DNA of 64,000 bases from Nitrobacteraceae bacterium AZCC 2146 (lineage in GTDB: Bacteria > Pseudomonadota > Alphaproteobacteria > Rhizobiales > Xanthobacteraceae). Made by a program: the position numbers and the translations under genes. The number at the start of each line of letters is the position of its first letter. The stretch's first letter is position 1. Shown here in pieces: positions 1 through 42,122 of this stretch. The notes below the pieces were generated by a model, which made no database searches, was not told where the DNA came from, and was given only the letters and a program-made list of their open reading frames with translations. The stretch spans positions 1,054,001 through 1,118,000 of the forward strand of contig JBAGRP010000001.1 of assembly GCA_036924855.1 (NCBI GenBank), written 5' to 3'.

Positions 1-435
1 CACCTCAGGCGGGGTCGGCTGCACTTCCCGGGTGATCGCCAGCGGCTCGTTCACGGCCGCATGCGCTTCGGCCTCGACGAAGGTCTCCGGCGTCGGCGGC
101 TCCGGCGTGGTCGGCGTCGTCACGGGGGTGTCGATGTTCTCGATCTTGTCGATGGTCATGGCGTCGCTGACGTCCTTGGTCAGCGCGGTCATGATGTTGT
201 TCTTGGAAAATCCGGAGGCGGCTTCCTTGACGTCGTCGAAGGCTTTCTTGACGTCGGCCATTTCGGCTTCGCGCATCGCCTCGTTGAACTGGCCCTGAAA
301 CTCGGAGGCCATTTTTCGCGCTTTGCCCATCCACTGCCCGACCATGCGCAGCACGCCGGGCAGTTCCTTCGGGCCGATGGCAATCAGCGCGACGACCGCG
401 ATGACGACCAGTTCACTCCACCCGATGTCGAACAT
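1..435 (-). CDS. tatB: Sec-independent protein translocase TatB (3' end outside window)
   Basis: TatB works with TatC as the twin-arginine signal receptor at the inner membrane. The protein opens with MFDIGWSEL, followed by one hydrophobic helix (about residues 8-20), the glycine-proline hinge GPKELP, and an amphipathic helix rich in Lys, Arg and Glu, the standard TatB plan. About 145 codons are visible before the left edge, and the visible tail is a Pro/Thr-rich linker. It lies 116 bp downstream of tatA on the same strand, and tatC would be expected next, outside the window. Identity is firm; the C-terminus cannot be seen. Confidence 0.93.
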
Positions 436-551
436 GAAAAAATCCGCTCCCGCCAGGCTGAACCACCCCGCGTCTCCCTCAATGGCTCTGCCGCAATCCC
501 GCCGCAAGACAAATCGTTGCCTTGGGTTTGCCGCAAGCCTCCGCAGCTGTT

Positions 552-791
552 TCAGACGGCCTTGCTGCCGACGTCGGAACGGGCCGCGGTCGGCGCCGGG
601 GCGGTCTGGTCGATGGTCCGGACTGGTTCGGCGGGTTTGTCCGCCGGCTTTTCGTCGTCCGCCATGCCCTTCTTGAAGGCCTTGATACCCTGCGCGACGT
701 CGCCCATCAGGTCGGAAATCTTGCCGCGCCCGAACAACAGCAGGACCACTCCGATCACGACGATCCAGTGCCAAATGCTGAGTGAACCCAT
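552..791 (-). CDS. tatA: Sec-independent protein translocase TatA
   Basis: TatA oligomerises to form the protein-conducting element of the Tat system. The 79-residue product starts MGSLSIWHW, has a single N-terminal membrane helix (residues 7-20), the FGRGKI hinge, an amphipathic helix with GxKAFKKG, and an acidic, Pro/Ala-rich tail. A start 14 codons upstream is open, but the MGSLSIWHW start matches the family length and N-terminus. It sits between scpB and tatB on the minus strand and is probably co-transcribed with tatB. A GC-rich inverted repeat lies between scpB and tatA. Confidence 0.95.
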
Positions 792-853
792 CCTGATAAT
801 CCTCCAACACGCGGCCAGTCGCCCGGCCGTCAATCTGACCGGAACGTAGGCTG

Positions 854-885
854 CGGGGGTGTCAAAAACAAGGACTTAACCCCCG
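854..885 (-). terminator. inverted repeat between scpB and tatA
   Basis: CGGGGGT at 854-860 is complementary to ACCCCCG at 879-885, leaving an 18-base A-rich loop. It lies in the 144-bp gap between the scpB stop and the tatA start. There is no clear U-tract, so this could be a weak terminator or processing hairpin rather than a true intrinsic terminator. Confidence 0.3.
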
Positions 886-935
886 TGGAATCACGCATGC
901 CGCGGCGCATTGCCGCGAGCGTTAATTCCCTGGGA

Positions 936-1922
936 TCAGTGCTTGGTGTCCTCGTCCGGCTCGTCGGCGTCCGGTTCTTCGGTATCGGGCGCCAGATCGT
1001 CGGCTTCAGCAACCTCGATCTCGTCGGCCTCCAGTTCCGCCACTTCCAGTTCGGCGGTTTCAGGCTCTTCCGGTTCGGGCTCGATCGCTTCCAACCCGGC
1101 CGTTTCAGCCTCAGTTACTTCCGGCTCGGCCGCGCCCAGTTCGGATTCGACGACGTCCGACTCGACGGCGGCCAACTCCGCCGCTTCCTGTTCGGTGACC
1201 TTGAGTTCGGCAAATTCCGGCTCCGGCGCCGACAATGCCAGTTCGAGATCGCCGACTTCCAGGGGATCCTCGTCGTCGCGCAGCGCCGGATCGTCCGACG
1301 GGTTGGGAACGCTGAAGCCGGAGGGCAGCCGCGAATCCAGGAGACCGGTGCCCTTCAGTTCTTCCAGGCCCGGCAGATCGCCAAGCGCCTCGAGGCTGAA
1401 CTGCGAAAGAAAACTGTCGGTGGTCCCAAAAGTCAGCGGCCGGCCGGGCGTCTTCCTGCGGCCACGCGGCCGGATCCAGCCGGTTTCCAGCAGCACGTCC
1501 AGCGTGCCCTTGGAGGTGACGACGCCGCGAATGTCTTCGATCTCGGCACGAGTGACCGGCTGGTGATAGGCGACGATGGCTAGCACTTCGACCGCCGCGC
1601 GCGACAGTTTTCGGGTCTCGGTGGTTTCGCGGGTCATCAGCCACGACAGATCGCCGGCGGTGCGGAACGTCCATTTGTTGGCAACGCGAACCAGATTGAC
1701 GCCGCGCATGGCATAATCGGCCTGCAGCTGTGCCAGCGCCGACTTGATGTCGACGCCGTCCGGCATGCGCTTGGCCAATGCCGCCTGGTCGAGTGGCTCG
1801 GTGGAGGCAAACAGCAGCGCTTCCAGCAGACGCAGTTCCTCGGGACGCGCCTCCAGCTGATTCTCCGGCTGCGCGATCTGATCCTCGGCATCGTCGATAC
1901 GTTTCTCGGCGAGGCTTGCCAT
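936..1922 (-). CDS. scpB: Segregation and condensation protein ScpB with long acidic tail
   Basis: ScpB is the winged-helix partner of kleisin ScpA in the Smc chromosome-condensation complex. The conserved part covers about residues 25-190: LRLLEALLFASTEPL, then the two winged-helix modules, including AIVAYHQPVTRAEIE and RGRRKTPGRP. After about residue 230 comes roughly 100 residues of Glu/Ala/Val-rich low-complexity sequence ending DEPDEDTKH, longer than usual for the family. I chose the ATG at 1922 (328 aa) because AGGAGAT lies just upstream. A GTG at 1943, abutting the scpA stop, is in frame but lacks such a site. Translational coupling to scpA is likely. Confidence 0.92.
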   Translation of the reverse strand: MASLAEKRIDDAEDQIAQPENQLEARPEELRLLEALLFASTEPLDQAALAKRMPDGVDIKSALAQLQADYAMRGVNLVRVANKWTFRTAGDLSWLMTRETTETRKLSRAAVEVLAIVAYHQPVTRAEIEDIRGVVTSKGTLDVLLETGWIRPRGRRKTPGRPLTFGTTDSFLSQFSLEALGDLPGLEELKGTGLLDSRLPSGFSVPNPSDDPALRDDEDPLEVGDLELALSAPEPEFAELKVTEQEAAELAAVESDVVESELGAAEPEVTEAETAGLEAIEPEPEEPETAELEVAELEADEIEVAEADDLAPDTEEPDADEPDEDTKH

Positions 1923-1943
1923 GTCTGGATCTCCTTCTTCCAC

Positions 1944-2777
1944 TTACTCGGCCGGAACTTCCGGCTCCGCCAGCGCGGCCGACGCGGAACGCGGCGGGGG
2001 CTTGCGAAAATACAAAGGTGCGAACGCTTCTTTCTGGCTCAGGTCCAGCGTGCCTTCGCGAACCATCTCCAGTGCGGCGGCAAAGCTCGACGCCATCACG
2101 GTGGCGCGCTGCGTGGGATCGACGACATAGGCCAGCAGGTATTCGTCGAGCCGGCTCCAGTCCTCGGCCATACCGACCAGCCGCTCCAACGACGCCCGCG
2201 CTTCGCTCAACGACCACACCGTACGGCGGGCAAGATGCACCCGGGTCAGCACCCGCGCCTGCCGCTGCGTGGCATAGGCAGACAGCAGATCATACAAGGT
2301 CGCGGTAAAGCGCGGATGCTTCACCTCGGCAATCGCCTCGGGAATGCCGCGCGGAAAGATGTCGCGATTGAGCTGCGGCCGGGTCATCAGCCGGTTCGAG
2401 GCCTCGCGAATGGCTTCGAGGCGGCGCAAGCGATTGGCCAGCGCAGTCGCCATGTCCTCGGCGCTGGGACCGTCCGGCGTCGCCGGCTCCGGCAGCAGCA
2501 GCCGCGATTTGAGGAACGCCAGCCACGCCGCCATCACCAGATAGTCGGCAGCGAGTTCCAGGCGAATCTTGCGGGCGGCCTCGATGAACAGCAGATACTG
2601 GTCGGCCAGCGCCAGGATCGAGATCTTGTGCAGATCGACCTTCTGCTGCCGCGCCAGGGCCAGCAGCAGGTCGAGCGGGCCTTCGTAACCCTCGACATCG
2701 ACGACCAGCGAGGGTTCATCGTCGGCGACGATCTCGGCGGGCCGTCCGGTTTCAAACGACAGAATTTCTGCAGTCAT
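1944..2777 (-). CDS. scpA: Segregation and condensation protein ScpA (kleisin)
   Basis: ScpA is the kleisin that bridges the Smc heads and binds ScpB. The 277-residue protein carries the diagnostic N-terminal YEGPLDLLLALARQQKVDL block (about residues 30-48) that forms the Smc-neck helix. A helical middle follows (LVMAAWLAFLKSRLLLP), with a C-terminal winged helix around LDLSQKEAFAPLYF. The start overlaps the nagZ stop by 4 bp (ATGA), and its TAA directly precedes scpB, so the three form a coupled operon. Confidence 0.95.
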   Translation of the reverse strand: MTAEILSFETGRPAEIVADDEPSLVVDVEGYEGPLDLLLALARQQKVDLHKISILALADQYLLFIEAARKIRLELAADYLVMAAWLAFLKSRLLLPEPATPDGPSAEDMATALANRLRRLEAIREASNRLMTRPQLNRDIFPRGIPEAIAEVKHPRFTATLYDLLSAYATQRQARVLTRVHLARRTVWSLSEARASLERLVGMAEDWSRLDEYLLAYVVDPTQRATVMASSFAAALEMVREGTLDLSQKEAFAPLYFRKPPPRSASAALAEPEVPAE

Positions 2778-3799
2778 GCGCTCGCCCCCGCTCGGCTGAT
2801 CAACGCGTCCAGTTCAGCCCGGCCCGCTTCGCGGTCAAAGGGCTGCGGCTGGCGCCGCGACGCCAAGGCCAGTCTGGCGCGCTCCAGCGCCTTGCCGGCC
2901 AGAATGGGCGTTTCGCCGGCGACGGCGCGCATCTCATCGAGCTTGCCGTTGCAATGCAGGACGATGTCGCAGCCGGCCATGACGATCGCCTTGGTTCGCT
3001 CGGCAATCGATCCCGCCAGCGCATTCATGGAGACGTCATCACTCATCAACAAACCTTGGAACCCGATACTGCCGCGAATCACCTGTTCGATGATTGTCGC
3101 AGAAGTCGTCGCCGGTTGGGCGGGGTCCAAGGCGCTAAACACAACATGTGCAGTCATTGCCATCGGCAAATCGGCCAAAGGCCGGAATGCGGCGAAATCG
3201 GCCGCCTCGAGTTCCGCCTTGGAGGTATCCACGACCGGCAATTTGAAATGGGTGTCGGCGGTGGCGCGGCCGTGGCCGGGAATGTGCTTGAGCACCGGCA
3301 GGATGCCGCCCTGCTCCAGCCCCTCAGTGACGGCGCGGGCGATCGCCGCGACCTTGCCGGGCTCGGTGCCATAGGCCCGATTGCCGATCACGGCGTCGGC
3401 GCCGTCTACCGGAACATCCGCCAATGGCAGGCAGTCCACCGTGATGCCGAGATCGACCAGATCGGCCGCGATCAGCCGGCTGCTCAAGCGTGCAGCCTTG
3501 AAGCCCAGCACGGGATCGATGTCGTACAGCGTACCGAAAACGGCGCCGGGGGGATAGGCGGGCCAATGCGGCGGGGCGAGCCTTTGTACCCGGCCGCCTT
3601 CCTGGTCGATCAGGACGGGGGCGTCGACATTACCAGTCGTTTCGCGAAATTCATCAACCAGCCGAGCGACTTGTTCTGGGTTATCGATATTTCGCTTGAA
3701 GAGGATAAAGCCCCACGGCAGCTCGGCGCGCAGAAACGCGCGCTCCTCAGCGGTCAATTCCAGTCCAGATACGCCGGTGATGAATGCGCGCGTGCTCAT
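2774..3799 (-). CDS. nagZ: Beta-N-acetylhexosaminidase NagZ (GH3)
   Basis: NagZ is a cytoplasmic glycoside hydrolase family 3 enzyme that removes GlcNAc from anhydro-muropeptides during peptidoglycan recycling. The 341-residue protein has DQEGGRVQR near residue 65 and the NagZ signature KHIPGHGRATADTH at 171-184, which contains the His of the Asp-His catalytic dyad. LLMSDDVSM near residue 253 carries the nucleophile Asp. There is no signal peptide, as expected. It overlaps scpA by 4 bp and lies 46 bp downstream of the SPOR-domain gene, which links cell-wall and chromosome genes in one transcription unit. Confidence 0.95.
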   Translation of the reverse strand: MSTRAFITGVSGLELTAEERAFLRAELPWGFILFKRNIDNPEQVARLVDEFRETTGNVDAPVLIDQEGGRVQRLAPPHWPAYPPGAVFGTLYDIDPVLGFKAARLSSRLIAADLVDLGITVDCLPLADVPVDGADAVIGNRAYGTEPGKVAAIARAVTEGLEQGGILPVLKHIPGHGRATADTHFKLPVVDTSKAELEAADFAAFRPLADLPMAMTAHVVFSALDPAQPATTSATIIEQVIRGSIGFQGLLMSDDVSMNALAGSIAERTKAIVMAGCDIVLHCNGKLDEMRAVAGETPILAGKALERARLALASRRQPQPFDREAGRAELDALISRAGASA

Positions 3800-3845
3800 G
3801 GGGCCGATTAGCCCCCATCAACGCCCAGGGTCAAGGAAACGGCCG

Positions 3846-5279
3846 TTAATTCCTTTGGACGACGCACTGCCCGCCGGCAGTTTTCAGACTGCCGCAGAAC
3901 TGCGAGGCCTCGTCGGGCGACCCGAACGGACCGACCATGGCCCGGTAGTAGGTGCCCTTGTCGCCCAGATCGGCCCGCTTGATCAGCGGGGTGCGCGATC
4001 CCAGCACCGACGGGAACTTGCCCTGCAGCGCCCGGAACGAGGCCTGGGCGTCCGCTTCGTTACGCTGCGACGAGATCTGCACCAGGTAGCCGCCGCTGCT
4101 CGCGGTGGCCGGTGCGATCTGCTGCGGGGCATTATTGGATGCGACACGCGCCGGGGCTGGCGCTGCCGTCTGCGGGGACGGAGACAGTGACAGCGGTGCG
4201 TTGGCCGACGCATTGGCGTTCGACGGCGCAGCCGCCCGTGCCGGCGCTGTGGCGGGCGCAGATGTCGGTGCAGGCGCGGCGATGCGTGCCGGCGCCTGCC
4301 GGGCCGCCGGTGTCGCCGTGCCCTCAGGCTGGTCGCCCTTGACCGCGAAAGTGCGGATCTTGCGCGGCTCGTCGCCCTGCATCGAGCCGTTGCCGACCAT
4401 CGGCTTGCTGGCCGGCGAAACGCTGGCGGTCGATGGCGGATTGGCATTCTGGTTCAGCGGCGGAAACACCACGCGCGGACCGGCCTTGGTGTTGTCCTGC
4501 ACGTTGACCGGCTGCTCTTCGCGGGAGACGAGTTTCTCCGGCGCGGCACCGCCAAGGCGATCCTGGATCAGCTTGCTGTTGGCATCCGATGACGCAGACG
4601 GGGGCACCACCTTGTTCGGGCCGGCATCGGCCTTGATCACTGGCGGCTCGCCGCTGCGCGGGGAGCCGATAAAGGTGCGATAGGCGAAGGCCGCACCGGT
4701 GCCGACCACGGCCAGCGCCAGTACCACCGCAACGGTCACCAGCCCGCCGCGGCGCTTCGGAGCCTCCTCCTCGGCATAGCCGTCCTGATAGGCGTAGGGA
4801 TCGTCCTGATAGTGATCGTCTTGCGGATGCGGCTCGTGGCCGTCGGACTGACCGTACAGCGCCTCGTCGTAGCGATCGGGATCCGCCTGCTCGTGCGCAT
4901 GATAGTTCGCGTCCGCCGCGAAGGACGGCCCCTGATGGTAGTCGGGCTCGGGTTCAGGCTGCTGGACAGCGTAACGTTGGGCCGGGTGCAAATTCTCAAA
5001 TTCCTGCTGATGTGTCTCTTGGGCGGCGGCGCGCTGCATCCATGGCGGCGGCCCGGGCGGCGCCACATCGGACTCGTACTCCGGCTCTTCCTGCGGCGCA
5101 GGATCGGCGCGGCGCGACGCCGGCATCTCGCGACCCAGGTTGGCAAACGGGTCTGTCTGCCCGATCAGGCGCGCCAGTTCCGCCAGCGGATCGCCCTCGC
5201 CTTTAGGCTGCGCATGGCCGGAGCCGCGGCTGTACTCGTCATCCGCGGGGAAAGGTCGGTCCTGGTATCGATTAGCCAT
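3846..5279 (-). CDS. SPOR-domain membrane protein
   Basis: This is a predicted septal peptidoglycan-binding protein. It has a long hydrophilic cytoplasmic N-terminus rich in Asp, His, Tyr and Gln (residues 1-175). One membrane helix follows (about 180-201, VTVAVVLALAVVGTGAAFAY), then a Pro/Ala-rich periplasmic linker. A C-terminal SPOR domain spans about 395-473 (GGYLVQISSQ...TYYRAMVGPFGS). SPOR domains bind denuded glycan at division sites (family knowledge). It lies between argS and nagZ in the common alphaproteobacterial order. A specific name such as FtsN or DamX cannot be assigned from sequence alone. Confidence 0.85.
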   Translation of the reverse strand: MANRYQDRPFPADDEYSRGSGHAQPKGEGDPLAELARLIGQTDPFANLGREMPASRRADPAPQEEPEYESDVAPPGPPPWMQRAAAQETHQQEFENLHPAQRYAVQQPEPEPDYHQGPSFAADANYHAHEQADPDRYDEALYGQSDGHEPHPQDDHYQDDPYAYQDGYAEEEAPKRRGGLVTVAVVLALAVVGTGAAFAYRTFIGSPRSGEPPVIKADAGPNKVVPPSASSDANSKLIQDRLGGAAPEKLVSREEQPVNVQDNTKAGPRVVFPPLNQNANPPSTASVSPASKPMVGNGSMQGDEPRKIRTFAVKGDQPEGTATPAARQAPARIAAPAPTSAPATAPARAAAPSNANASANAPLSLSPSPQTAAPAPARVASNNAPQQIAPATASSGGYLVQISSQRNEADAQASFRALQGKFPSVLGSRTPLIKRADLGDKGTYYRAMVGPFGSPDEASQFCGSLKTAGGQCVVQRN

Positions 5280-5383
5280 GGTGATGTCGCGTCCCCTTCG
5301 GGAAAGCCGCCAACTCGCTCGTCAAACGAAACAGCCGCACTTAAAAGCCGTCACAGATCCCTGCGTGACTGGCCGTCCCCCGT

Positions 5384-7171
5384 CTACCGCATCTCGTCTG
5401 GAGCGGTGACGCCGAGAACGGCAAGGCCCGATGCCAGAACCGAAACAACGCTCTGGACCAATGCCAGTCGCGCCTTGGTTAGTTCTGCATCATTAGTGAT
5501 AATGAAGCGTAAATGAGGCATATCGCGCCCCCGGGTCCACAACGCATGAAACTCGCTGGCAAGATCATACAGGTAAAACGCGATTCTGTGCGGCTCGTGA
5601 GCGGAGGCGGCAGACTCGATCATCCGCGGATATAGCGCCAGCTGCCGCATCAAGCTGAGTTCCGTGGCATCGTCGAGCCGCTCCACCGCGGCATCCTTCA
5701 AATATACCGCCCGTGCCCCCGCCTCTTCCGGCAGGTCCGTCAGCATCTCCCGCGCATTGCGGAAGATCGAATGGCCGCGGGCATGGCCGTACTGGACGTA
5801 GAATACCGGATTGTCCTTGGACTGCTCGATCACCTTGGCGAGGTCGAAATCCAGCACAGCGTCGTTCTTGCGGAACAACATCATGAAGCGCACCGCGTCG
5901 GAGCCGACCTCGTCGACCACTTCGCGCAGCGTAACGAAGTCGCCGGAGCGCTTCGACATCTTCACCGGCTCACCGTTGCGCAGCAGCTTGACCAGCTGCA
6001 CGATCTTGACGTCGAGCGCGGCCTTGCCGGCGGTGACCGCCTTGATCGCCGCCTGCACGCGCTTGATGTAGCCGCCGTGGTCGGAGCCCCAGACGTCGAC
6101 AAGGTTGAGGAAACCACGGTCGAACTTGGTCTTGTGATAGGCGATGTCGGAAGCGAAATAGGTGTAGCCGCCGTCGGACTTCAGCAGCGGCCGATCGACA
6201 TCGTCGCCATAGGCGGTGGCGCGGAACAAGGTCTGTTCGCGGTCTTCGTAATCATCGACCGGCTTTCCCTTCGGCGGCGGCAGACGGCCGACATAAACAT
6301 CACCCTTGGCGCGCAGGAATTCGATGGTCGCAGCGACCATGTCCGTGCCGCCATCGATCAGCGAGCGCTCCGAAAAGAACACCTCGTGGCTGATGTTGAG
6401 CGCGGCGAGATCGCCGCGGATCATCTCCATCATCATGGCGATGGCCTTGGGCCGCACGATCGGCAGCCATTGCTCCCTCGGCATGTCCAACAGCTTGGTG
6501 CCGAATTCGACCTTTAGTGCCTCGCCAACTGGGATCAAATAGTCGCCCGGATATGTGCCATCCGCCATTACAAGCACACCGCCGCGGATGGCGTGCTCGT
6601 AACGCAAGTACGCCGAGTACGCCAAGACGTCGACCTGCGCGCCGGCGTCGTTGATGTAGTATTCCCGGGTGACGTCGTAGCCAGCGGTCGCCAGCAGGCT
6701 CGCCAGCGCATCGCCGAACACGGCGCCGCGGCAATGTCCGACATGCATCGGCCCGGTCGGATTGGCCGAGACGTATTCGACGTTGACCTTCTCGCGTGCA
6801 CCGACGGAGCTCTGTCCGTAGGACGCACCGTCGCGCAATACCGCGCGCAACGCGTCGGCCCATGCCGACGTTTTCAAAGTGAGATTGATGAAGCCCGGCC
6901 CGGCGACTTCGACCGACGCGATCAGATCGTCTTCGCGCAGTTTGGCGGCAATCGCTTCGGCGAGGTCGCGCGGCTTCGCCTTTGCTTCCTTCGCCAGCAC
7001 CATCGCGGCGTTGCTCGCCATGTCGCCATGCGAGGCGTCCTTGGTCGGCTCCACCACCACGCGCGCCAGATCGAGGCCAGCCGGCAGCACACCGTCGGCG
7101 GCGAGCTTGTTGCAGACCGCGTGGACGCGCGCGAGCACGTTGGCGAACAGATGCGGAGACGGAGCGGGCAT
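5384..7171 (-). CDS. argS: Arginyl-tRNA synthetase
   Basis: ArgS charges tRNA-Arg. The 595-residue class I synthetase has the N-terminal Add1 domain. The ATP-binding HIGH-type motif is HVGH at 143-146 within [20 protein letters not shown]. The second signature is KMSKRSG in the stretch [15 protein letters not shown], and the C-terminal DALR anticodon-binding domain begins around [12 protein letters not shown]. Length is normal. It follows dgt by 158 bp and precedes the SPOR gene by 104 bp, all on the minus strand. Confidence 0.97.
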
Positions 7172-31697: not shown

Positions 31698-33600
<1,903 letters not shown>

Positions 33601-33648
33601 TCTGACGTCCAAATCGCCCGGGTCCCACAATCGTCACGGCCGCTGAAT

Positions 33649-33679
33649 TTGACACAACCATGATGAGGTCAGATACGAT
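33649..33679 (+). promoter_or_regulatory. Candidate sigma-70 promoter of garD
   Basis: TTGACA at 33649-33654 and TACGAT at 33674-33679 are spaced by 19 bp (an AGATAC alternative gives 16 bp), upstream of garD. This is plausible but the spacing is not ideal. A GGAGGAA ribosome site lies at 33728-33734 just before the garD start. Confidence 0.35.
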
Positions 33680-33737
33680 GCGGGTCTGAGCCGGCTGTCG
33701 TAGGCTCCCATCCAAGCAATAGAATTTGGAGGAATGC

Positions 33738-35300
33738 ATGCTGACGCAGGAAGCACATCAGACCGGCGAGCCGCTCTACATCCGGCTGCGCGACGACGAC
33801 AATGTCGCGATCGTCGCCAACCAGGGCGGCCTGCGCCCAGGCGCCCGCTTCGCCTGCGGGCTCAGCCTGATCGAACAAATCCCGCAAGGCCACAAGGTCG
33901 CGCTGGCGGATATCGCCGCCGGTGCCGCCATCACGCGTTATGGCGAAGTGATCGGCCATGCGGCAGCGGCGATCGCCAAAGGAAGCTGGGTCAAGGAAGC
34001 CCTCGTCGTGATGCCGGAGGCCCCTTCCCTAAGCAATCTGCCAATGGCGCGGGGCGCGCTGTCTGCGCAAGAACCGCTGGAAGGCTTTACGTTCGAGGGC
34101 TATCGCAATGCCGATGGCTCCGTCGGGACCCGGAATATTCTGGCGATCAGCACCAGTGTGCAGTGTGTTGCGGGCACCGTGGACTACGCGATCAAGCGTA
34201 TCCGCGACGAGTTGCTCCCCAAATATCCCAACATTGACGATGTGATGGCGATCACCCACGCCTATGGCTGTGGCGTCGCCATCAACGCACCCGGCGCGGC
34301 GGTGCCGATCCGAACGCTACAAAATCTGGCGCGCAATCCGAATTTCGGCGGCGAGGTGATGATCGTCGGTCTCGGCTGTGAAAAATTGCAGCCGGAATTG
34401 TTGTTACCGGAAGGGATGGCCTCGGCCACCATGGACGACAGCGATATCGTCCGCATGCAGGATGAGAGCCTGACCGGCTTCGGTGAAATCGTAGAGAGCA
34501 TCGTGGAGATGGCCGACAAACGGCTTCAGGCTCTCAACCTTCGCCGCCGCGAAACCTGTTCGGCGGCCGACCTCGTTATCGGACTGCAGTGTGGCGGTAG
34601 CGATGCCTTCTCCGGCGTGACGGCGAATCCCGCTGTCGGCTTCGCAGCGGATCTGCTGGTGCGCGCCGGCGCCACCGTGATGTTTTCGGAAGTGACCGAG
34701 GTCCGGGATGCGATCCATTTGCTGACACCGCGGGCGGTCAATCAGGATGTCGCAGATGCGCTGATCCGCGAAATGGACTGGTACGACCGGTATCTGCAGA
34801 CGGGCGAAGCGGACCGCAGCGCCAATACGACCCCCGGCAACAAGAAGGGCGGCCTCTCCAACATCGTCGAAAAGGCCATGGGCTCGGTGATCAAGTCGGG
34901 CACGTCAGCCATTTCCGGCGTGCTGTCACCCGGCGAGCGCGTGCGTGAGAAGGGGTTGATCTTCGCAGCCACGCCGGCAAGCGACTTCATCTGCGGGACG
35001 CTGCAACTGGCATCCGGAATGACGCTTCATGTGTTCACGACCGGCCGTGGCACGCCCTACGGCCTGGCTGCCGCGCCGGTCATCAAGGTTTCCACGCGGA
35101 GCGATCTGTCGCAGCGCTGGCATGATCTGATCGATGTCGATGCGGGAACCATCGCCACCGGCAAAGCGAGCATCGAGGATGTCGGCTGGGAGATTTTTCA
35201 CCTCATCCTGGAGGTTGCCAGCGGGCGCAAGAAAACCTGGTCCGACAAATGGGGGATCTTCAATTCGCTCGCACTCTTCAATCCCGGCCCGGTGACGTAA
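33738..35300 (+). CDS. garD: Galactarate dehydratase
   Basis: GarD dehydrates galactarate (meso-galactaric acid) to 5-dehydro-4-deoxy-glucarate. The 520-residue protein matches the enterobacterial enzyme along its length. It has an N-terminal SAF domain with [14 protein letters not shown] and [79 protein letters not shown] [23 protein letters not shown], and the end [13 protein letters not shown] 33738 follows GGAGGAA; an ATG at 33734 is in another frame. The later pathway genes (aldolase, reductase) are not adjacent. Confidence 0.93.
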
Positions 35301-35327
35301 CCGACCAAGCGCCTGGCCCGCCACAGC

Positions 35328-35409
35328 ATCCGCCGGCTTCGTTGACCGCAACAGCTTCGCGCAGGCAAAGCCCAGTGCAAAGATAACAGCGGCGCTGGCG
35401 AGCAGCGTC
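35328..35409 (-). repeat. MFS 3'-tail copy A
   Basis: These 82 bp match 40959-41040, the 3' end of the intact MFS gene, at about 69 of 82 positions by hand alignment, in the same orientation. On the minus strand it still reads as a matching peptide (ALGFACAKLLRSTKPADA against ALGFACAKLLRPTKPADA). Most differences are at third codon positions, so it derives from a diverged but once functional homologue. It sits between garD and the Fe/2OG oxygenase module. Confidence 0.85.
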
Positions 35410-35513
35410 GCGGTGTAGGCCTGAAGAAAGTGAACGCGAGTAGGCCGCGCGCGGGAGATGCTTAATTTGGCAGATGAGTAACTGTTTGAAAGACGGCGCG
35501 ACCGCGGCTGTTA

Positions 35514-35529
35514 TGGCACGGAATATGCT
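35514..35529 (+). promoter_or_regulatory. Sigma-54 (-24/-12) promoter upstream of the oxygenase gene
   Basis: TGGCACG at 35514-35520, four bases, then ATGCT at 35525-35529 matches the TGGCACG-N4-TTGCW consensus except for one T to A change. GG and GC are separated by exactly 10 bases. It lies about 66 bp upstream of the oxygenase start, on the correct strand. Sigma-54 promoters require an AAA+ activator; none is encoded in the window. Confidence 0.6.
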
Positions 35530-35594
35530 TGCTATTAGCCTGCAACTGCGATGCTGCCCTGTTGTGCAGGTACTTCAAACGATGGACACAACCT

Positions 35595-36608
35595 ATGACG
35601 CTCACGAGTATCCCGGTCATCGATATTTCTCCATATCGCATGGGTTCTTTGGATGGCAAGCAAGCTGTGGCCAAGGCGGTAGCCCAAGCCTGCCGCGACA
35701 TCGGATTTCTGGTCATCACGGGGCACGGCGTCTCCCCCGCGCTGGTCAATCGGGTAGATGCGAGCGCTCGGACTTTTTTCGATTTACCAACTGCGGACAA
35801 GATGGCGATCAAGCGGCCAAAGGACGATCAGGTTCGCGGCTACAGTGCTGTCGGCGATGAGGGCCTTTCCTACAGCCTCGGTGAAAAATCTCCCGGCGAT
35901 CTGAAGGAATCATTTTCAATCGGTCCCGTTGTCGTGCCGGACGATCCGTATTTCACTGGCCCGGCTGCCGGACCGCATTTCGCACCTAATCTCTGGGCAG
36001 AGCAAATCCCGGACTTCAAGGAATCTTGGCAAGAATATTTCCAAGCGATGTCCGATCTCTCCAAAACGTTGATGCGCATCTTCGCGCTCGGTCTTGATTT
36101 GCCGGAAACTTATTTTGACGACAAGATCGACCGACACATCAGTATGTTCCGCGCGCTCAAATATCCCAACCAGCACGAGGAGCCCTTGCCCGGTCAACTG
36201 CGCGCCGGTGCGCATTCGGACTACGGCAGCCTGACCATCGTGCGCACGGAAGACCGCCCAGGCGGCCTGCAGGTCTACAACAAGGCTGGAGAGTGGGTCG
36301 ATGTTCCGGCGGTGGGCGGGGGATTCGTCGTGAATATAGGTGACCTCATGATGCAATGGACCAACGACCTGTGGTCGTCAACGCTGCATCGCGTCGCCAA
36401 TCCCCCACGAGAGAAGGCTGGCAACAGCGCGCGGCTTTCCCTGGTGTTCTTTCACCAGCCGAATTACGACGCGATCGTCGAATGCCTCGAGAGTTGTCAG
36501 GGGCCGGGTAACCCCGCCAAATACGAGCCGGTGTCATCAGGCGATCATCTGACCAGCAAGTTCGTTAAGCAGACGACCTTCGGCGAAGGTTCCAGAAAAT
36601 CAGCATGA
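35595..36608 (+). CDS. Fe(II)/2-oxoglutarate-dependent oxygenase, isopenicillin N synthase-like
   Basis: The 337-residue non-heme iron oxygenase begins with SIPVIDISPYRMG and ACRDIGFLVITGHGV, the N-terminal DIOX_N block. It carries the metal triad in AHSDYGSLTIV (His, Asp) and LHRVANPP (His), and the 2OG-binding Arg in ARLSLVFFHQPN. Soluble, no signal peptide. ATG 35595 begins the conserved region. Its TGA overlaps the VOC gene start by 4 bp, so they form a two-gene operon behind the sigma-54 promoter. The substrate is unknown. Confidence 0.88.
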   Translation: MTLTSIPVIDISPYRMGSLDGKQAVAKAVAQACRDIGFLVITGHGVSPALVNRVDASARTFFDLPTADKMAIKRPKDDQVRGYSAVGDEGLSYSLGEKSPGDLKESFSIGPVVVPDDPYFTGPAAGPHFAPNLWAEQIPDFKESWQEYFQAMSDLSKTLMRIFALGLDLPETYFDDKIDRHISMFRALKYPNQHEEPLPGQLRAGAHSDYGSLTIVRTEDRPGGLQVYNKAGEWVDVPAVGGGFVVNIGDLMMQWTNDLWSSTLHRVANPPREKAGNSARLSLVFFHQPNYDAIVECLESCQGPGNPAKYEPVSSGDHLTSKFVKQTTFGEGSRKSA

Positions 36609-37024
36609 CGGATTCTACGATCGAGACACCAGACAGGGCGACGCTGTCCTACGTCAACGTCTTTGCTCGGGACATTGTCGCCCTGAGTCGGTTCTACATG
36701 GACGTGTTCGACTTCACGGAGATCGAGAAAATCCGTTCCCCCATTTTCCGGGGGCTGGACACCGGACGCAGCAGCCTCGGCTTCAATGCGCAGGACGCTT
36801 ATGGCCTATTGAAGCTGGACGCGTTCTCGGAGGTAAGTGGAATCAAGTTTCTGCTCAACATCGATGTCTTCAGCGTTGCCGAGGTCGATCGGCTGACGCC
36901 AAAGGCCGTTTCATTGGGCGCACAATTGGTGAAGCCGCCCTACACGACCTATTACAACTGGTATCAGGCCGTTTTGCTGGATCCCGAACAGAACGTTTTC
37001 CGCATCAACCACATTCTCGAATAG
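36605..37024 (+). CDS. VOC (glyoxalase/dioxygenase-fold) family protein
   Basis: The 139-residue protein has the paired beta-alpha-beta-beta-beta units of the vicinal oxygen chelate fold: LSYVNVFARDIVALSRFYMDVFDF at residues 14-37 and KFLLNIDVFSVAEVDRLTPKA in the second half. It ends LLDPEQNVFRINHIL with a possible metal Glu. It overlaps the oxygenase stop by 4 bp (ATGA), so both are translated together. It could be a lyase, dioxygenase or binding protein; no specific reaction is assignable. Confidence 0.8.
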   Translation: MTDSTIETPDRATLSYVNVFARDIVALSRFYMDVFDFTEIEKIRSPIFRGLDTGRSSLGFNAQDAYGLLKLDAFSEVSGIKFLLNIDVFSVAEVDRLTPKAVSLGAQLVKPPYTTYYNWYQAVLLDPEQNVFRINHILE

Positions 37025-37091
37025 CGACCGCGACGCCGCTCGACGTTACTGCAAGGGTCTCGGCGCCGGCCTTGGACTAGGCCGCGCCACT

Positions 37092-37170
37092 ATCCGCCGG
37101 CTTGGTTGGCCGCAACAGCTTCGCGCAGGCAAAGCCAAGCGCGAAGATGATCACCGCGCTGGTCAGCAGT
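37092..37170 (-). repeat. MFS 3'-tail copy B
   Basis: These 79 bp match 40959-41037 at about 76 positions, same orientation, and encode ALGFACAKLLRPTKPAD on the minus strand. Two of the three changes are synonymous in the MFS frame; the third falls at the junction end. It is joined directly to a decayed queF 3' end (37171-37284), so the junction between MFS and queF sequences is the reverse of the native order. Confidence 0.9.
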
Positions 37171-37284
37171 ATCGCTGAAGCTCTACATCGCCGGTTTCCG
37201 CAACCACGGCACGTTCCACAACGACTGCACGGTAGCGACTGGCGAGCGCATCGTGGCCGTCGCGCCGTATAGGGGGCGGGGTGA
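37171..37284 (+). pseudogene. queF 3'-end remnant
   Basis: The sequence ATCGCTGAAGCTCTACATCG onward matches queF from 33366 and reads [21 protein letters not shown] before an internal deletion of about 125 bp. It then resumes at the queF end VAPYRGRG and TGA at 37282-37284. The conserved His-Glu pair of queF (FHED) is changed to FHND, so it would be inactive even if complete. It directly follows MFS tail copy B. Confidence 0.85.
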
Positions 37285-37304
37285 GCCCGCCTCCCCTGCG
37301 TGCG

Positions 37305-38516
37305 TCATGCCGTGGCAAACCGGCTTTCGTTCCGACAGGCGACAGCGGCCTGCTCGACATCGTAGTCATAGAGCGATTTGCGGAACGCCGCCGAGTTGGC
37401 GATCTCGCGATCGCGCTGCTCAAGGCTCTCATACTTGGAGTCGTAGCGGAGCCCGTTTTGCCGCGCTTCGGCCTGAATCACATCGGTGCGGACCCGGCGA
37501 AATTTTTCATATTCCGGCAGGATATTCACAACTTCGGCTGCGTGCCGCCCTTCGAGAAAGCTGGCCAGAGCGGCGCCGTCCTCGATGGCCTGATTGGCTC
37601 CCTGGCCGAGATGCGGAAGCATCGGATGCGCCGCGTCGCCCAGTAAGACCAGCCGTCCCTTCGTCCACGATGCGAGCGGTCTGCGATCATATAAGCCCCA
37701 CCAGAAGCAGCTCTCCACCTTTTCGAGCAGCCCGACGACGCGCGGATCCCATCCGTCGAAGGATGCCGCAAGTTCGTCACGGTCTCCAACCGCGGACCAT
37801 GACTCGATGATTTGGTTTGTTGTCGGGACGAAGCCAACGTAATTGAGAAGCCGGCCACTCCGAACCGGGAACGCCATGAAGTGCTTACCGTCACCCATCC
37901 AGACCTGGTGCGCCTCATCACGCCACCCGGGAAGTTTCTCGCGGGGGATCAAGCCGCGGTAGGCGCGCACGCCCGAATATTCGGGCGATTTCGGCTCGAC
38001 GACATAGTTCTGCAACACCGACTGAATGCCATCGGCAGCGATGACGATATCGGCTTCGGCCGTTTCACCGTTCGCAAATTTCAGTTGCGCCGCGGCGTCG
38101 CTCTGTTCGAACCCAATACAGCGATGCCCCGTGCGGATCGCGCTTGGCGGCAGGGCTGCCGCGAGCGCGTTCAGCAGATCGGCCCTGTGCATGCCATACA
38201 TGCCATTCCAGCCACTCGAGTCGGTGGTGAGAATGGGCCCGACGACGCTGCCGTCCATCCGATAATATTGCGAGCCGCTACCAACCTTTGCGCCCACCGC
38301 CGCCAGTGCCTTGCCCAATCCAATTCGCTCGAGCTGCCGCAGGCTGTTCGGATAGATGAAAACGCCGGCCCCGACCTCCCCCAGCGCATTGGCTTGTTCG
38401 AAAACTTCGACATCGATACCTCGCCGATGCAGGAAGTTCGCCGCGGACAGACCGCATATTCCTCCCCCGACGATGGCAGCGCGAAGCGGTTTGGTTGATG
38501 TCGTTCTTTCTTTCAT
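37305..38516 (-). CDS. FAD-dependent aromatic-ring monooxygenase-like protein
   Basis: This class A flavoprotein monooxygenase has 403 residues and resembles salicylate or 3-hydroxybenzoate 6-hydroxylases. It has the FAD dinucleotide motif [21 protein letters not shown] (residues 13-33), [18 protein letters not shown], the DG motif [12 protein letters not shown], and the GD motif [29 protein letters not shown]. Soluble. It is co-directional with the upstream MFS gene (38615-39859), 98 bp away, suggesting import and hydroxylation of one compound, with the divergent LysR controlling it. Confidence 0.85.
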
Positions 38517-38614
38517 GTGGTTCTCTTTCGTTCCTGCAAGACGAGACGGGCTTTGTCCGGAAGTTGCTCGTCTTGCGTGGATTCAAGTATTGTGAAGCGG
38601 CTCACTCACGAGCG

Positions 38615-39859
38615 TCAGCGCTTGCGTGGCGGATAAGGGTAAGGCCCCAACGTCGCGACAAGGACGATCGCTGCGGATAGCGCGATCCCAAGACCGATCA
38701 GGCCGACGGAGTAGCTGCGATAGGCATCGAACGCATGCGCCATCAGCCACGGACCGAGACCAGAGCCGAGGGTGAAAAAGGCAAGAATGCAGCCATAGAT
38801 CACGCCATAATGCGCCATGCCGAAATAGCGGCCGGTCAGATACGCCATGATGTCGCCTTCGGCGCCGATACCGAGGCCGAGAAGAACAGCCGCGACCACC
38901 GCAACCGGGCCCACCGCGCCCAGGCCGAGCATCGCCATGCCGATCAACGGGATCATGAAAAAGAATCCCGCGACGTAAGGCCCGCGGAAACGATCGAGCG
39001 CCAGGCCGGAAAGCATGCGCCCGATAATCAGCGACAGTCCGGCAGCCGCGACCGCAGTGGTAGCGGTGCCTGCCGGGATGCCGCGGTCTGACAGAATCGG
39101 CACAATATGCGCGATGGTGCCGTTGATCGCTGCGGCCGCGAACATCATGGAGATCGACGCGAACCAGAAGCGATAGGTGCTGAGCGCCTGCTTGAGCGTC
39201 AAACCCTCGGTGTACGTAGCTTCTGCCCCGGCTCGCAAAGGCCGATCCCTGACGAAGAGCGCAACCGACGAGAAGCCAACAACGAAGAGCAGAGCACCCA
39301 AGGCAAAATAAGCCTCACGCCAACCATAGCTGGAAACGAAATACTGCGTGTATTTCGGAATCACTGCAGCACCGATGCCGATGCCCGCAAGCGTGATGCC
39401 GAGCGCCAGACCGCGCTGCGCATCAAACCAGGTCGAAACGGCGCGCGCGTAGATCAACGTCGAATGCCCGGCACCAACGAGGCCGAGAAATGCATAGAGC
39501 AAGATGAAGGCCATCAGGTTGTTGCCAAGCAATCCGCCGGAAGCGGTTGCCAACGCAAACATCGTGATCGCAGGAAGCGCGATCCGTTTCACGCCAAAGC
39601 GATCAACCAAAGTGCCGACGAACGGCATCATGACAGCGCCGGCAATGTGAGATGTCACGACTGCTGCAGCGAGCGAACCGCGCGGCCAGCCGAATTCTGC
39701 GCTGATCGGCTGCAGCAGAACGCCGAAGGTAAAGAGGATGATGGGACCGTTGCCCACGATAAGCGCAAGCGTCGAGCCAACGACAACAAGCCACCCGGCG
39801 GAAACACGATCACTGGAAAGTGGCGTGGCAAGACGTTCTTCTACGGCGACGCTTCTCAT
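38615..39859 (-). CDS. MFS transporter (oxalate/formate or monocarboxylate-like)
   Basis: The 414-residue protein has twelve predicted helices. It includes the first cytoplasmic loop motif GTLVDRFGVKRIAL, YAFLGLVGAGHSTLIYARAVSTWFDAQRGLALGITLAG (helices 4-5, as in the OFA/MCT group) and GEGDIMAYLTGRYFG-like EGDIMAYLTGRYFGM in helix 10. I chose ATG 39859, preceded by GGGAGGATTG. An upstream in-frame ATG at 39871 lacks such spacing. It is divergent from the LysR gene and co-directional with the FAD monooxygenase. Confidence 0.85.
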   Translation of the reverse strand: MRSVAVEERLATPLSSDRVSAGWLVVVGSTLALIVGNGPIILFTFGVLLQPISAEFGWPRGSLAAAVVTSHIAGAVMMPFVGTLVDRFGVKRIALPAITMFALATASGGLLGNNLMAFILLYAFLGLVGAGHSTLIYARAVSTWFDAQRGLALGITLAGIGIGAAVIPKYTQYFVSSYGWREAYFALGALLFVVGFSSVALFVRDRPLRAGAEATYTEGLTLKQALSTYRFWFASISMMFAAAAINGTIAHIVPILSDRGIPAGTATTAVAAAGLSLIIGRMLSGLALDRFRGPYVAGFFFMIPLIGMAMLGLGAVGPVAVVAAVLLGLGIGAEGDIMAYLTGRYFGMAHYGVIYGCILAFFTLGSGLGPWLMAHAFDAYRSYSVGLIGLGIALSAAIVLVATLGPYPYPPRKR

Positions 39860-39938
39860 CAATCCTCCCATCGCGCTTTTTTAAACGGGCAGCGCTGATG
39901 GCAAGGTAGGACGAGGCGATTTATTTGACAATTCGCCT

Positions 39939-39950
39939 TTGATAGATCAA
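39939..39950. promoter_or_regulatory. Candidate LysR operator TTGATAGATCAA
   Basis: TTGAT-AG-ATCAA is a perfect inverted repeat in the 130-bp region between the divergent MFS and LysR genes. LysR-type regulators usually bind such dyads near their own start. It lies about 40 bp upstream of the LysR GTG. Confidence 0.4.
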
Positions 39951-39989
39951 GTGATATGAAATCGTTATAAATAAGCCGGGAGCGACAGC

Positions 39990-40916
39990 GTGAGCGTCAC
40001 CTTTCGTCAGCTCAGTGCACTTCTTGCGGTGGCCGAAACCCGGAATTTTACCCGTGCGGCGGAGCGGCTGCGGATGGCGCAGCCAATGATCTCCGGCCTG
40101 ATCCGGGATCTGGAAACAGAACTTGGTTTTCGCCTGTTCGATCGATCGACGCGTCGGGTGGAGCTGACCGAAGCGGCGGCCGAGTTCCTGCAGGATGCGA
40201 GACGCCTCACGGGCGACATGGACGGTGCCATTCGCCGGGCTCGCGATGTCGCCACGCGCCGGCGCGGCCGTATCACAGTCGGGGCTCCACCACTTCTCGC
40301 AGCAGCGCTGCTGCCGCAGGTAATCAGCGCTTTTTCGCAATCATCGCCGGGCGTATCGGTGACGGTTGTCGACCGCCCTATTTCGGCGATCTATCGGCTG
40401 CTGAAAGAAGGCGAGATCAATCTTGCGGTCGGCACCTTCCTGGGCAACGAGGATGGCATCGCGCGCATCCCGCTCGTCTCCTATCTGTTCGCCTTGCTGT
40501 GCCGAGCGGACCATCCGCTAGCCGGAAACATGCGGCCACGCTGGAACGATCTCGCGGGCGTTCCGCTGATCGCGCTGCGCCGCGGAAACGGCATCCGCGA
40601 ACAGCTGGAACGCGGTTACGCGGCGGCGGGACTGGACGCGGAGCCCGCCTTCGAACTGGACCAACTGACCACGATCGTCGCGATGGTCGAGGCCGGGTTC
40701 GGCATTACGGTGTTGCCCCTCTACGCGATCAAGGCACTTTCGACGCCATTGCTGGTCGCGCGCCCCCTCGTCGATCCGCCGGTCACACGCGAGATCGACG
40801 TAGCTCATCGGGATGACCGTTCGCTTTCCCCCGCGGCCGAGGACTTCGTTCGTCTTTTGAAAATCGGTGCGGTACAGCTGCAATCGCAGGGCGAAAGCCT
40901 GCTGGATAAGGAGTGA
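39990..40916 (+). CDS. LysR-family transcriptional regulator of the monooxygenase/MFS pair
   Basis: The 308-residue protein has an N-terminal winged HTH (residues 4-62: TFRQLSALLAVAETRNFTRAAERLRMAQP, then a co-inducer-binding domain with GVPLIALRRGNGIREQL). It starts with GTG at 39990. It is divergent from the MFS gene, which is typical of a local regulator of a catabolic pair. The effector would be the transported or hydroxylated compound, not identifiable here. It ends 28 bp before the MFS gene that carries tail copy C. Confidence 0.88.
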   Translation: MSVTFRQLSALLAVAETRNFTRAAERLRMAQPMISGLIRDLETELGFRLFDRSTRRVELTEAAAEFLQDARRLTGDMDGAIRRARDVATRRRGRITVGAPPLLAAALLPQVISAFSQSSPGVSVTVVDRPISAIYRLLKEGEINLAVGTFLGNEDGIARIPLVSYLFALLCRADHPLAGNMRPRWNDLAGVPLIALRRGNGIREQLERGYAAAGLDAEPAFELDQLTTIVAMVEAGFGITVLPLYAIKALSTPLLVARPLVDPPVTREIDVAHRDDRSLSPAAEDFVRLLKIGAVQLQSQGESLLDKE

Positions 40917-40943
40917 GCTTCGCGGCCTCGGTCGGCGGACTGG

Positions 40944-42122
40944 CTATGCTGCGATCGCATCCGCCGGCTTGGTCGGCCGCAACAGCTTCGCGCAGGCAAA
41001 GCCGAGCGCGAAGATGATCACCGCGCTGGTCAGCAGCGTCGGCAGCTTGCCTAGATGCAGAATTCCGAATCCGTAGGCGATCGGCCCGACCGACTGGCCC
41101 ATGAAGAAGCAGAAGGCGTGCAGCGACATCGCGCTGGCGCGCGCTTCCTGGGACAACTCGCTGGAGAACACCTGCAGCGAGCCGTGCAGCATGTAGAACC
41201 CCCAGCCCATGAACAGCAGACAGAGCGCCTGAACCTGCCAGGGTGGGCCAAAGGCGATGACGGCGAGCTGCAGCGCGATCATGATGCCGCCCCCGATCAT
41301 CATGCCGTTGACGCCGATCCGCGGCAGCATTCGCGAGATCGTGCCGGTGTAGAACAGCCCGCCGAATGCAAAGCAGGCCAGCACCAGGCCGGCGATCGAG
41401 AGACTGGTAACGCCAAGTTCGAACAGGAACGAGGCGACGAAGGGAAACAGCCCGAGGATGCAGCAGCCTTCGATAAAGACAGCACTGTAACAGATCGCCG
41501 TGTTCGGATTGGCGAAGATGGTGCGGTAGCCGTGCCGGAGCACGCCGAAATCCACCCTGCCCGGCGGCTTCGCCAGTTTTGCGCTCTTGAAACCGAGCGA
41601 TACCGCGACCGAAGCCACGATCGCCAGCACGCCGAGCGCCGCGAGCACGCCGCGCCAGCCGAAGAAATCGCCGATCACCCCGGACGCGGTGGCGCCAAGC
41701 AGATTGCCCGTCATGGCGCCGGCCAGCACGCGGCTGATCGCAATCTGCCGCTTGGCGGGAGCGACGAGGTCGCTGGTGAGACTCAACGTCACCGGAAACA
41801 CGCCGCCGGCGCCGATGCCGCCGAGTACGCGGGTGGCGAGCAGTAGCGGGTAGGACGTGGTCAGCGCCCCAAGAATATTGGCGATGCCGAGCAGGACGAG
41901 ACAGAACACCATCAGCCGCGCCTTGCCGAACAGATCGGCAGCGGCGCCGAGCACCGGCTGCACGATGGCAAAGGTAAAGGCCAGCGCCGACGAGAGGCCG
42001 GCCGCGGTAGCAATGGTCACGCCGAGTTCGTCGGCAACATGCGGCAGCACCGGATCGAGCGCACGCATCGATAGCGCGGCCGCAAACGACGCCAGCGCAA
42101 TGATATTGAGGACGGGCGGCAT
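40944..42122 (-). CDS. MFS transporter, source of the repeated 3' tail
   Basis: The 392-residue drug/sugar-type MFS protein has twelve helices. It includes GGIGAGGVFPVTLSLTSDLV and loop motif ADLFGKARLMVFCLVLLG, ending ALGFACAKLLRPTKPADAIAA. I chose ATG 42122 (MPPVLNIIALASF), the first conserved residue; the frame is open 30 codons earlier. The last ~80 bp recur at 35328-35409 and 37092-37170, so this intact gene forms the right border of the island. It lies 34 bp after kdsA on the minus strand. Confidence 0.88.
   Translation of the reverse strand: MPPVLNIIALASFAAALSMRALDPVLPHVADELGVTIATAAGLSSALAFTFAIVQPVLGAAADLFGKARLMVFCLVLLGIANILGALTTSYPLLLATRVLGGIGAGGVFPVTLSLTSDLVAPAKRQIAISRVLAGAMTGNLLGATASGVIGDFFGWRGVLAALGVLAIVASVAVSLGFKSAKLAKPPGRVDFGVLRHGYRTIFANPNTAICYSAVFIEGCCILGLFPFVASFLFELGVTSLSIAGLVLACFAFGGLFYTGTISRMLPRIGVNGMMIGGGIMIALQLAVIAFGPPWQVQALCLLFMGWGFYMLHGSLQVFSSELSQEARASAMSLHAFCFFMGQSVGPIAYGFGILHLGKLPTLLTSAVIIFALGFACAKLLRPTKPADAIAA
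40959..41040 (-). repeat. MFS 3'-tail copy C (native location)
   Basis: This is the native segment of the MFS gene that is repeated as copies A and B. It encodes ALGFACAKLLRPTKPADA. It is listed so that the direct-repeat set can be located: copies A, B and C are in the same orientation, about 1.76 kb and 3.87 kb apart. Confidence 0.9.

Follow-up and report, generated by a model that had tools for sequence, protein, structure and literature searches.

Many bacterial insertion hotspots lack a mobile element, and how they grow, as opposed to exchanging their content, is an open question. A 64,000-nt stretch of Nitrobacteraceae bacterium AZCC 2146 (GTDB lineage Bacteria; Pseudomonadota; Alphaproteobacteria; Rhizobiales; Xanthobacteraceae), here called the window, raises this question; it covers positions 1,054,001–1,118,000 of the forward strand of contig JBAGRP010000001.1 (assembly GCA_036924855.1), in a genome of 7.64 Mb assembled as a single contig. 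Between queF and a gene of the major facilitator superfamily (MFS) lie, in order, garD, a first MFS fragment (T1), genes for an Fe/2-oxoglutarate (2OG) oxygenase and a VOC protein, a second MFS fragment (T2), a queF fragment (queF′), and genes for a FAD monooxygenase, another MFS transporter (MFSb) and a LysR regulator. We treat these as modules A (garD), B (2OG oxygenase and VOC) and C (the last three genes). Our reading, to which we assign a probability of about one half, is that the queF–MFS gap is an integrase-free insertion hotspot, in that related strains carry different cargo in it, and that versions A, B and C were concatenated there by homologous recombination and end joining and did not replace one another. 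Its support comes from modules A and C occurring singly in sister species, the T2–queF′ order in the window, a related locus (L176) with two whole versions and an independent joint in another (L252).

Fragments of both flanking genes at the joints of the window

The two flanking genes and the fragments derived from them are as follows.

33112–33600, plus strand: queF, preQ1 synthase (QueF-II), the left flanking gene (TIGR03139, 146 bits; cut-off 86.9)
35313–35410, minus strand: T1, a copy of the 3′-terminal 98 bp of the MFS gene (85% over 35326–35410)
37077–37169, minus strand: T2, a copy of the 3′-terminal 93 bp of the MFS gene (97% over 37092–37169)
37171–37285, plus strand: queF′, a piece from the 3′ part of queF, internally deleted and fused to T2 (queF matches)
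40944–42122, minus strand: the intact MFS gene, the right flanking gene and source of the tails (PF07690; same place in relatives)

When the whole genome was searched with the MFS gene DNA, T1, T2 and the intact gene were the only matches (E ≤ 0.001). The matches cover bases 14–98 from the MFS stop codon in T1 (E = 2e-22) and bases 16–93 in T2 (E = 6e-34), and both fragments are oriented like the intact gene. Ungapped similarity extends back to the stop codon, at 35313 in T1 and 37077 in T2, and the tails are therefore 93–98 bp long. The longest mismatch-free stretch that T2 has in common with the MFS end is 32 bp. The initial annotation had noticed same-orientation MFS 3′ copies after the first two modules, which stands, but had put their length at ~80 bp. 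It had also described the modules as closed by MFS tails only; the joints are real, but the queF pieces had been overlooked.

The queF′ segment after T2 matches queF genes at 84–88% over 37171–37259 (84% to the window's own queF, bases 246–334 of its last 480), and 37255–37285 corresponds to bases 450–480, the end of queF, with about 115 bases deleted in between. At the T2/queF′ junction the MFS and queF genes have only the letters TCG in common. The second joint thus reads MFS′–queF′, the order expected when the right end of one locus version is joined to the left end of another.

Cargo between queF and the MFS gene in relatives

Across Tardiphaga and Bradyrhizobium the queF–MFS gap is a hotspot (loci and genomes are denoted by handles starting with L and G). 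In empty relatives (L004, L006, L044, L145, L146, L147 and L149, with L006 and L145 seemingly one genome) the two genes are convergent and their stop codons overlap by 4 bp. Module A is alone in the gap of G014 (queF–garD–MFS) and module C in that of G013 (queF–FAD–MFSb–LysR–MFS; 77–78% DNA identity), while G012, with a queF 97% identical in DNA, shows queF–garD as far as the contig end. The initial annotation had proposed looking for the modules separately between queF and the MFS gene, and two of the three were found in this way. It had also named two outcomes that would speak against it: all modules and tails being ancestral in this order, and tails matching the end of a mobile element. Among the other loci examined, none combines the three modules, and the tails correspond to the MFS gene itself.

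Both genes were present in 137 loci including the window, 129 of them unique. Cargo between the same two conserved genes varies over these 129 loci, as expected of a hotspot, and the gaps range from overlapping stop codons to 10 kb. Gap lengths were at most 60 bp in 13 loci, 61–800 bp in 13, 801–3000 bp in 42 and above 3000 bp in 61, counts that differ from population frequencies as the fetched loci were picked with a preference for long intervals. The cargo of all loci falls into 144 protein clusters. Similar stretches of at least 300 bp between intervals occurred 2204 times in the same orientation and 8 times in the opposite one, with every pair counted twice and related strains included. 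No integrase or transposase was found among the Pfam families listed for 94 cargo proteins of the other loci (25 of 74 families listed in one scan). Many multi-module intervals have no visible flanking-gene fragments and start or end at gene ends; these were not counted as joints.

The gaps between eno and queF and between ‘mid’ (a small gene beside kdsA) and pyrG also vary in length among genomes (L004–L043), so that several insertion sites sit close together here. In G272, queF lies 3.9 Mb from the MFS 3′ end.

Joints in other genomes

When pooled MFS 3′ ends and queF genes were searched against the 137 loci, nine of these contained credible fragments: the window, L025, L026, L138, L176, L184, L197, L213 and L218. 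Short matches of 26–50 bp (L024, L209 and extra ones in L176) were dropped before counting. L025 and L213 appear to represent one common scar, and L138 was kept as a weak tail (204 bp, 71%). Another 40 loci, some chosen on hints of a second copy, included 37 with both genes, four of these identical to earlier loci; one of the remaining 33 had a joint (L252), after short matches of the same kind in L262 and L278 and extra ones in L252 had been dropped. The other three of the 40, L253 and L254 among them, were without a full MFS gene downstream, and L253 carries an additional queF 3′ end, 261 bp long.

L176 is the clearest joint, with two complete locus versions that are each found singly elsewhere. 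The full 2.8-kb cargo of L161 (95%) is followed by an MFS′ of 326 bp, a queF′ of 40 bp and the full 4.2-kb cargo of L024 (97%). This junction as a whole had no match in other genomes among 265 searched (three candidates scored per genome). In L252, 290 bp that match the terminal part of other versions and most of the small L034 version lie to the left of an MFS′ of 149 bp, a queF′ of 50 bp and full L024-type cargo (96%); because its break points differ from those of L176, we count it as a separate event. Two joints have an MFS tail only: L218, where an unmatched left part precedes an MFS′ of 245 bp and bases 201–3568 of 3588 of L230-type cargo, and L025, with nearly all of an L190-type cargo, an MFS′ of 77 bp and about 285 bp common to L213 and the end of L202. 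Two others have queF′ only. L184 combines bases 171–1257 of L160-type cargo (96.5%), a queF′ of 218 bp and bases 1–5308 of 5605 of L022-type cargo (92%), and L197 combines part of L210-type cargo, a queF′ of about 29 bp and most of the L028 type. Wherever both sides could be matched, the left side was collinear with a version read from queF, and the right side with one read toward the MFS gene. Longer MFS tails next to modules, which the initial annotation had suggested looking for, thus exist in other genomes (149, 245 and 326 bp).

As a control, fragments of eno, queF, MFS, kdsA, mid and pyrG (122, 176, 139, 147, 54 and 43 query sequences, respectively) were sought in 123 intervals totaling 445 kb. 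At E ≤ 1e-11 there were 11 fragments, seven of MFS and four of queF, all in native orientation, leaving aside a hit in L160 to the beginning of queF (E = 1.07e-11). None of kdsA, mid or pyrG was found in these intervals. Weaker matches were to queF in L026 and L160, to eno (short, on either strand) in L016, L027, L191 and L212, and to MFS or queF (short, on the opposite strand) in L162, L170, L204 and L228. The opposite-strand matches were dropped, together with other short ones (26–50 bp) in L020, L160, L188, L194, L198 and L209 and 27-bp matches at interval edges due to padded queries.

One 4.2-kb cargo, 95–97% identical, occurs at varied interval positions in L024, L176, L209, L252, L262 and L278 of the Bradyrhizobium group, and its L176 copy encodes glutaminase and PF00144 serine hydrolase. 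The MFS genes of the six loci differ more than this cargo, which seems to be spreading. In L138 (G007) genes for a caspase-like peptidase (PF00656) and an ABC ATPase adjoin the decayed MFS tail. The MFS gene of L254 (G511) is broken, with a 112-bp tail adjoining an inverted 83-bp MFS piece at 6528–6720, and no full copy was found in the 10.5 kb fetched.

Donor and recipient tracts in the MFS copies

For L176 we scored 49 sites that separate the L024 type from at least 80% of 26 other genomes; an earlier test with 8 references, including two with divergent MFS bodies, was redone with the 26 and gave the same pattern. Up to base 286 the intact MFS gene is donor-type at 20 of 23 sites (two recipient, one neither), and beyond it recipient-type at 23 of 26 (one donor, two neither). 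In the tail, 18 of the 20 sites as far as base 247 are recipient-type (two donor), and all five beyond are donor-type. The two copies are therefore near-reciprocal mosaics of donor and recipient. One crossover of a unit whose MFS segment, reaching to base 326, is joined to queF′ predicts this pattern, including a short stretch that is donor-type in both copies. A linear donor already carrying MFS′–queF′–module–MFS would give the same result by two crossovers, and from simple one-sided joining one would expect a tail that is recipient-type throughout.

Donor tracts in the MFS 3′ end, as recombination in a flanking gene should leave, are present in L176 and L218. In L252, bases 150–250 of the intact gene are closest to L024 among the loci listed. 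In the window, bases 45–98 of the intact gene match G013, the module-C carrier, at 92% and G014 at 77%, and beyond base 98 the gene is closer to G014 in six of eight bins; T1 and T2 are also closer to G013 at bases 45–98 (85% and 92%, versus 66% and 73% for G014). The MFS genes of L161 and L021 agree well with the L176 tail for the last ~240 bp, with much lower similarity further in, as though the MFS tip had come in with the cargo.

Cargo modules of the window

The six cargo genes are listed below.

33738–35300, plus strand: module A, garD, galactarate dehydratase (TIGR03248, 923.8 bits; cut-off 730.85; found in G014 and G012)
35595–36608, plus strand: module B, Fe/2OG oxygenase (PF14226, PF03171)
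36605–37024, plus strand: module B, VOC/glyoxalase-like protein (PF00903)
37305–38516, minus strand: module C, FAD-dependent monooxygenase (PF01494; 79% protein identity, same place in G013)
38615–39871, minus strand: module C, MFS transporter MFSb (PF07690; 80% in G013)
39990–40916, plus strand: module C, LysR regulator (PF00126, PF03466; 83% in G013)

These TIGR03248 and Pfam matches confirm the cargo as initially annotated. None of the Pfam matches in the six proteins is to an integrase or transposase domain, and a scan of 30–46 kb of the window found no tRNA, again as had been claimed. GC content is 61.9% in module A, 56.6% in B and 60.9% in C, and 63.6–65.1% in the flanks, queF and the MFS gene. 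Relatives of the module B oxygenase occur in 30 of 391 family genomes at E ≤ 1e-60 (best 62%, in G171), and none lies near queF in the seven other genomes where both positions are listed; the 2OG/VOC module may have arrived separately.

How the array may have grown

In the growth step that we propose, a fragment running from inside queF, across one module and into the 3′ part of the MFS gene would enter the cell. Its ends would then be joined, which would produce the MFS′–queF′ junction seen in the window. One RecA-type crossover between the incoming MFS segment and the resident MFS gene would insert the unit without loss, a step modeled on the near-reciprocal mosaic seen in L176 and presumed for the window. 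The old MFS 3′ end would stay as a tail, the intact gene would receive the incoming 3′ end, the resident module would be kept, and repeated rounds would stack modules. Ku genes were found in all six genomes tested, and end joining is therefore available. Gene transfer agents were rejected as the carrier: PF09343, which we take to be their marker, is absent from the genome of the window and present in one of six genomes tested.

Several observations weigh against this reading. Its exact mechanism is directly supported at one locus, since the reciprocal mosaic is seen in the L176 joint only: the L218 tail is recipient-like throughout while the tip of its intact MFS gene is mostly donor-like, the tips of both MFS copies in L252 are recipient-like, and so are both queF copies in L184. 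The MFS tip of the window agrees with import from a donor, but it spans 53 bp and the relatives are too distant to reveal a mosaic there. Module B was not found at the queF–MFS gap elsewhere in the loci examined. No queF remnant was detected after T1 (local score 17.0, shuffled mean 18.0, with 353 of 500 shuffles as high). Finally, the break points of T1 and T2 in the MFS gene lie no more than about 5 bp apart, which is unexpected for independent events and could reflect a preferred break site or shared descent.

Homology-facilitated illegitimate recombination, in which a linear donor is joined homologously at one end (MFS or beyond) and illegitimately at the other (queF or cargo), is a possible but doubtful general explanation. 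It accounts equally well for L184 and L197, where only queF′ is present, the joint lies inside cargo and nearly complete cargo follows to the right, and it has been proposed for stacked immunity genes of the type VI secretion system (T6SS; PMC5361080). However, recipient DNA is normally lost in this process and the MFS tail left behind should be recipient-type throughout, and the donor-type tail end of L176 (five of five sites) points to another route. Tandem duplication of the locus, forming the MFS′–queF′ joint, with later replacement of one copy's cargo by homologous recombination, would yield the same final layout from known processes, as transformation produces duplications (PMC3784515). 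We consider it improbable, since two events are needed per joint and no scar locus compared had the same module on both sides.

An unseen site-specific integrase at the MFS 3′ end, with each island pushing aside the former 3′ end in the manner of islands at tRNA genes, is very unlikely. The layout is like that of tandem islands and the end points of T1 and T2 nearly coincide, but there is no integrase in the cargo of the window, the tails (93, 98, 149, 245 and 326 bp) have no common end apart from the near agreement of T1 and T2, and queF pieces are present too. We give just as little credence to the cargo being entirely ancestral, with modules lost from relatives and tails arising as unrelated duplications; loss surely occurs at such loci and many multi-module intervals are scarless, but empty sites have overlapping stop codons and the joints are chimeras of versions found whole elsewhere. 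The initial proposal of repeated acquisition by recombination at a queF/MFS hotspot is thus supported by the single modules in sisters and the longer tails in other genomes. A more far-reaching, tentative reading is that 3′ ends of core genes serve as makeshift attachment sites: tail-flanked modules might act as integrase-free cassettes, which RecA could excise and insert at the MFS 3′ ends of relatives without evicting their cargo, building arrays by housekeeping recombination alone.

Comparison with known systems

Where islands stand in tandem at tRNA 3′ ends, they are separated by displaced target-gene 3′ ends. The array described here likewise has displaced target 3′ ends between modules, but it lacks an integrase, its target is a protein gene, its break points are scattered and it also contains queF pieces. 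Hotspots without mobile elements, for which double recombination at flanking core genes was proposed (Oliveira et al. 2017, PMC5635113), are similar in their variable cargo between conserved genes, the lack of a recognizable mobile element and recombination in flanking genes; there content is exchanged, whereas here versions are added to each other and flanking-gene fragments mark the joints. The T6SS immunity arrays of Vibrio cholerae (PMC5361080, 2017), with displaced 3′ ends attributed to homology-facilitated illegitimate recombination, also show successive additions at one place with the old 3′ part left behind. In those arrays the cargo provides the homology and is displaced, while here flanking housekeeping genes provide it and whole modules survive. 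The same process has been invoked for small variable segments (PMC2884548), and one homologous and one non-homologous side fit L184 and L197. In E. coli, linear DNA is degraded, or ligated into a circle and integrated by a single crossing-over (Amarir-Bouhram et al. 2011, PMC3240628). Such joined ends plus one RecA-dependent crossover would yield the L176 structure, although that work is a laboratory plasmid assay and not a natural locus; an end-to-end junction with reciprocal mosaics is present in L176 and was not seen in L218 or L252.

The initial statement that no named mechanism exactly matches needs correction: flanking-gene recombination fits, and homology-facilitated illegitimate recombination and circularization with a single crossover fit at individual loci. 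A literature search over titles and abstract openings, with most subscription journals outside its reach, returned nothing on the queF–MFS locus or on module arrays tailed by flanking-gene fragments. The case belongs to a known kind and its elements are known; what is unusual is that both flanking genes give fragments, that resident modules survive and that the process has been repeated into a three-module array. With readable fragments of both flanking genes, coexisting single- and multi-module versions and mappable crossovers in one genome, the growth step that sets it apart from hotspots that exchange their content is directly testable.

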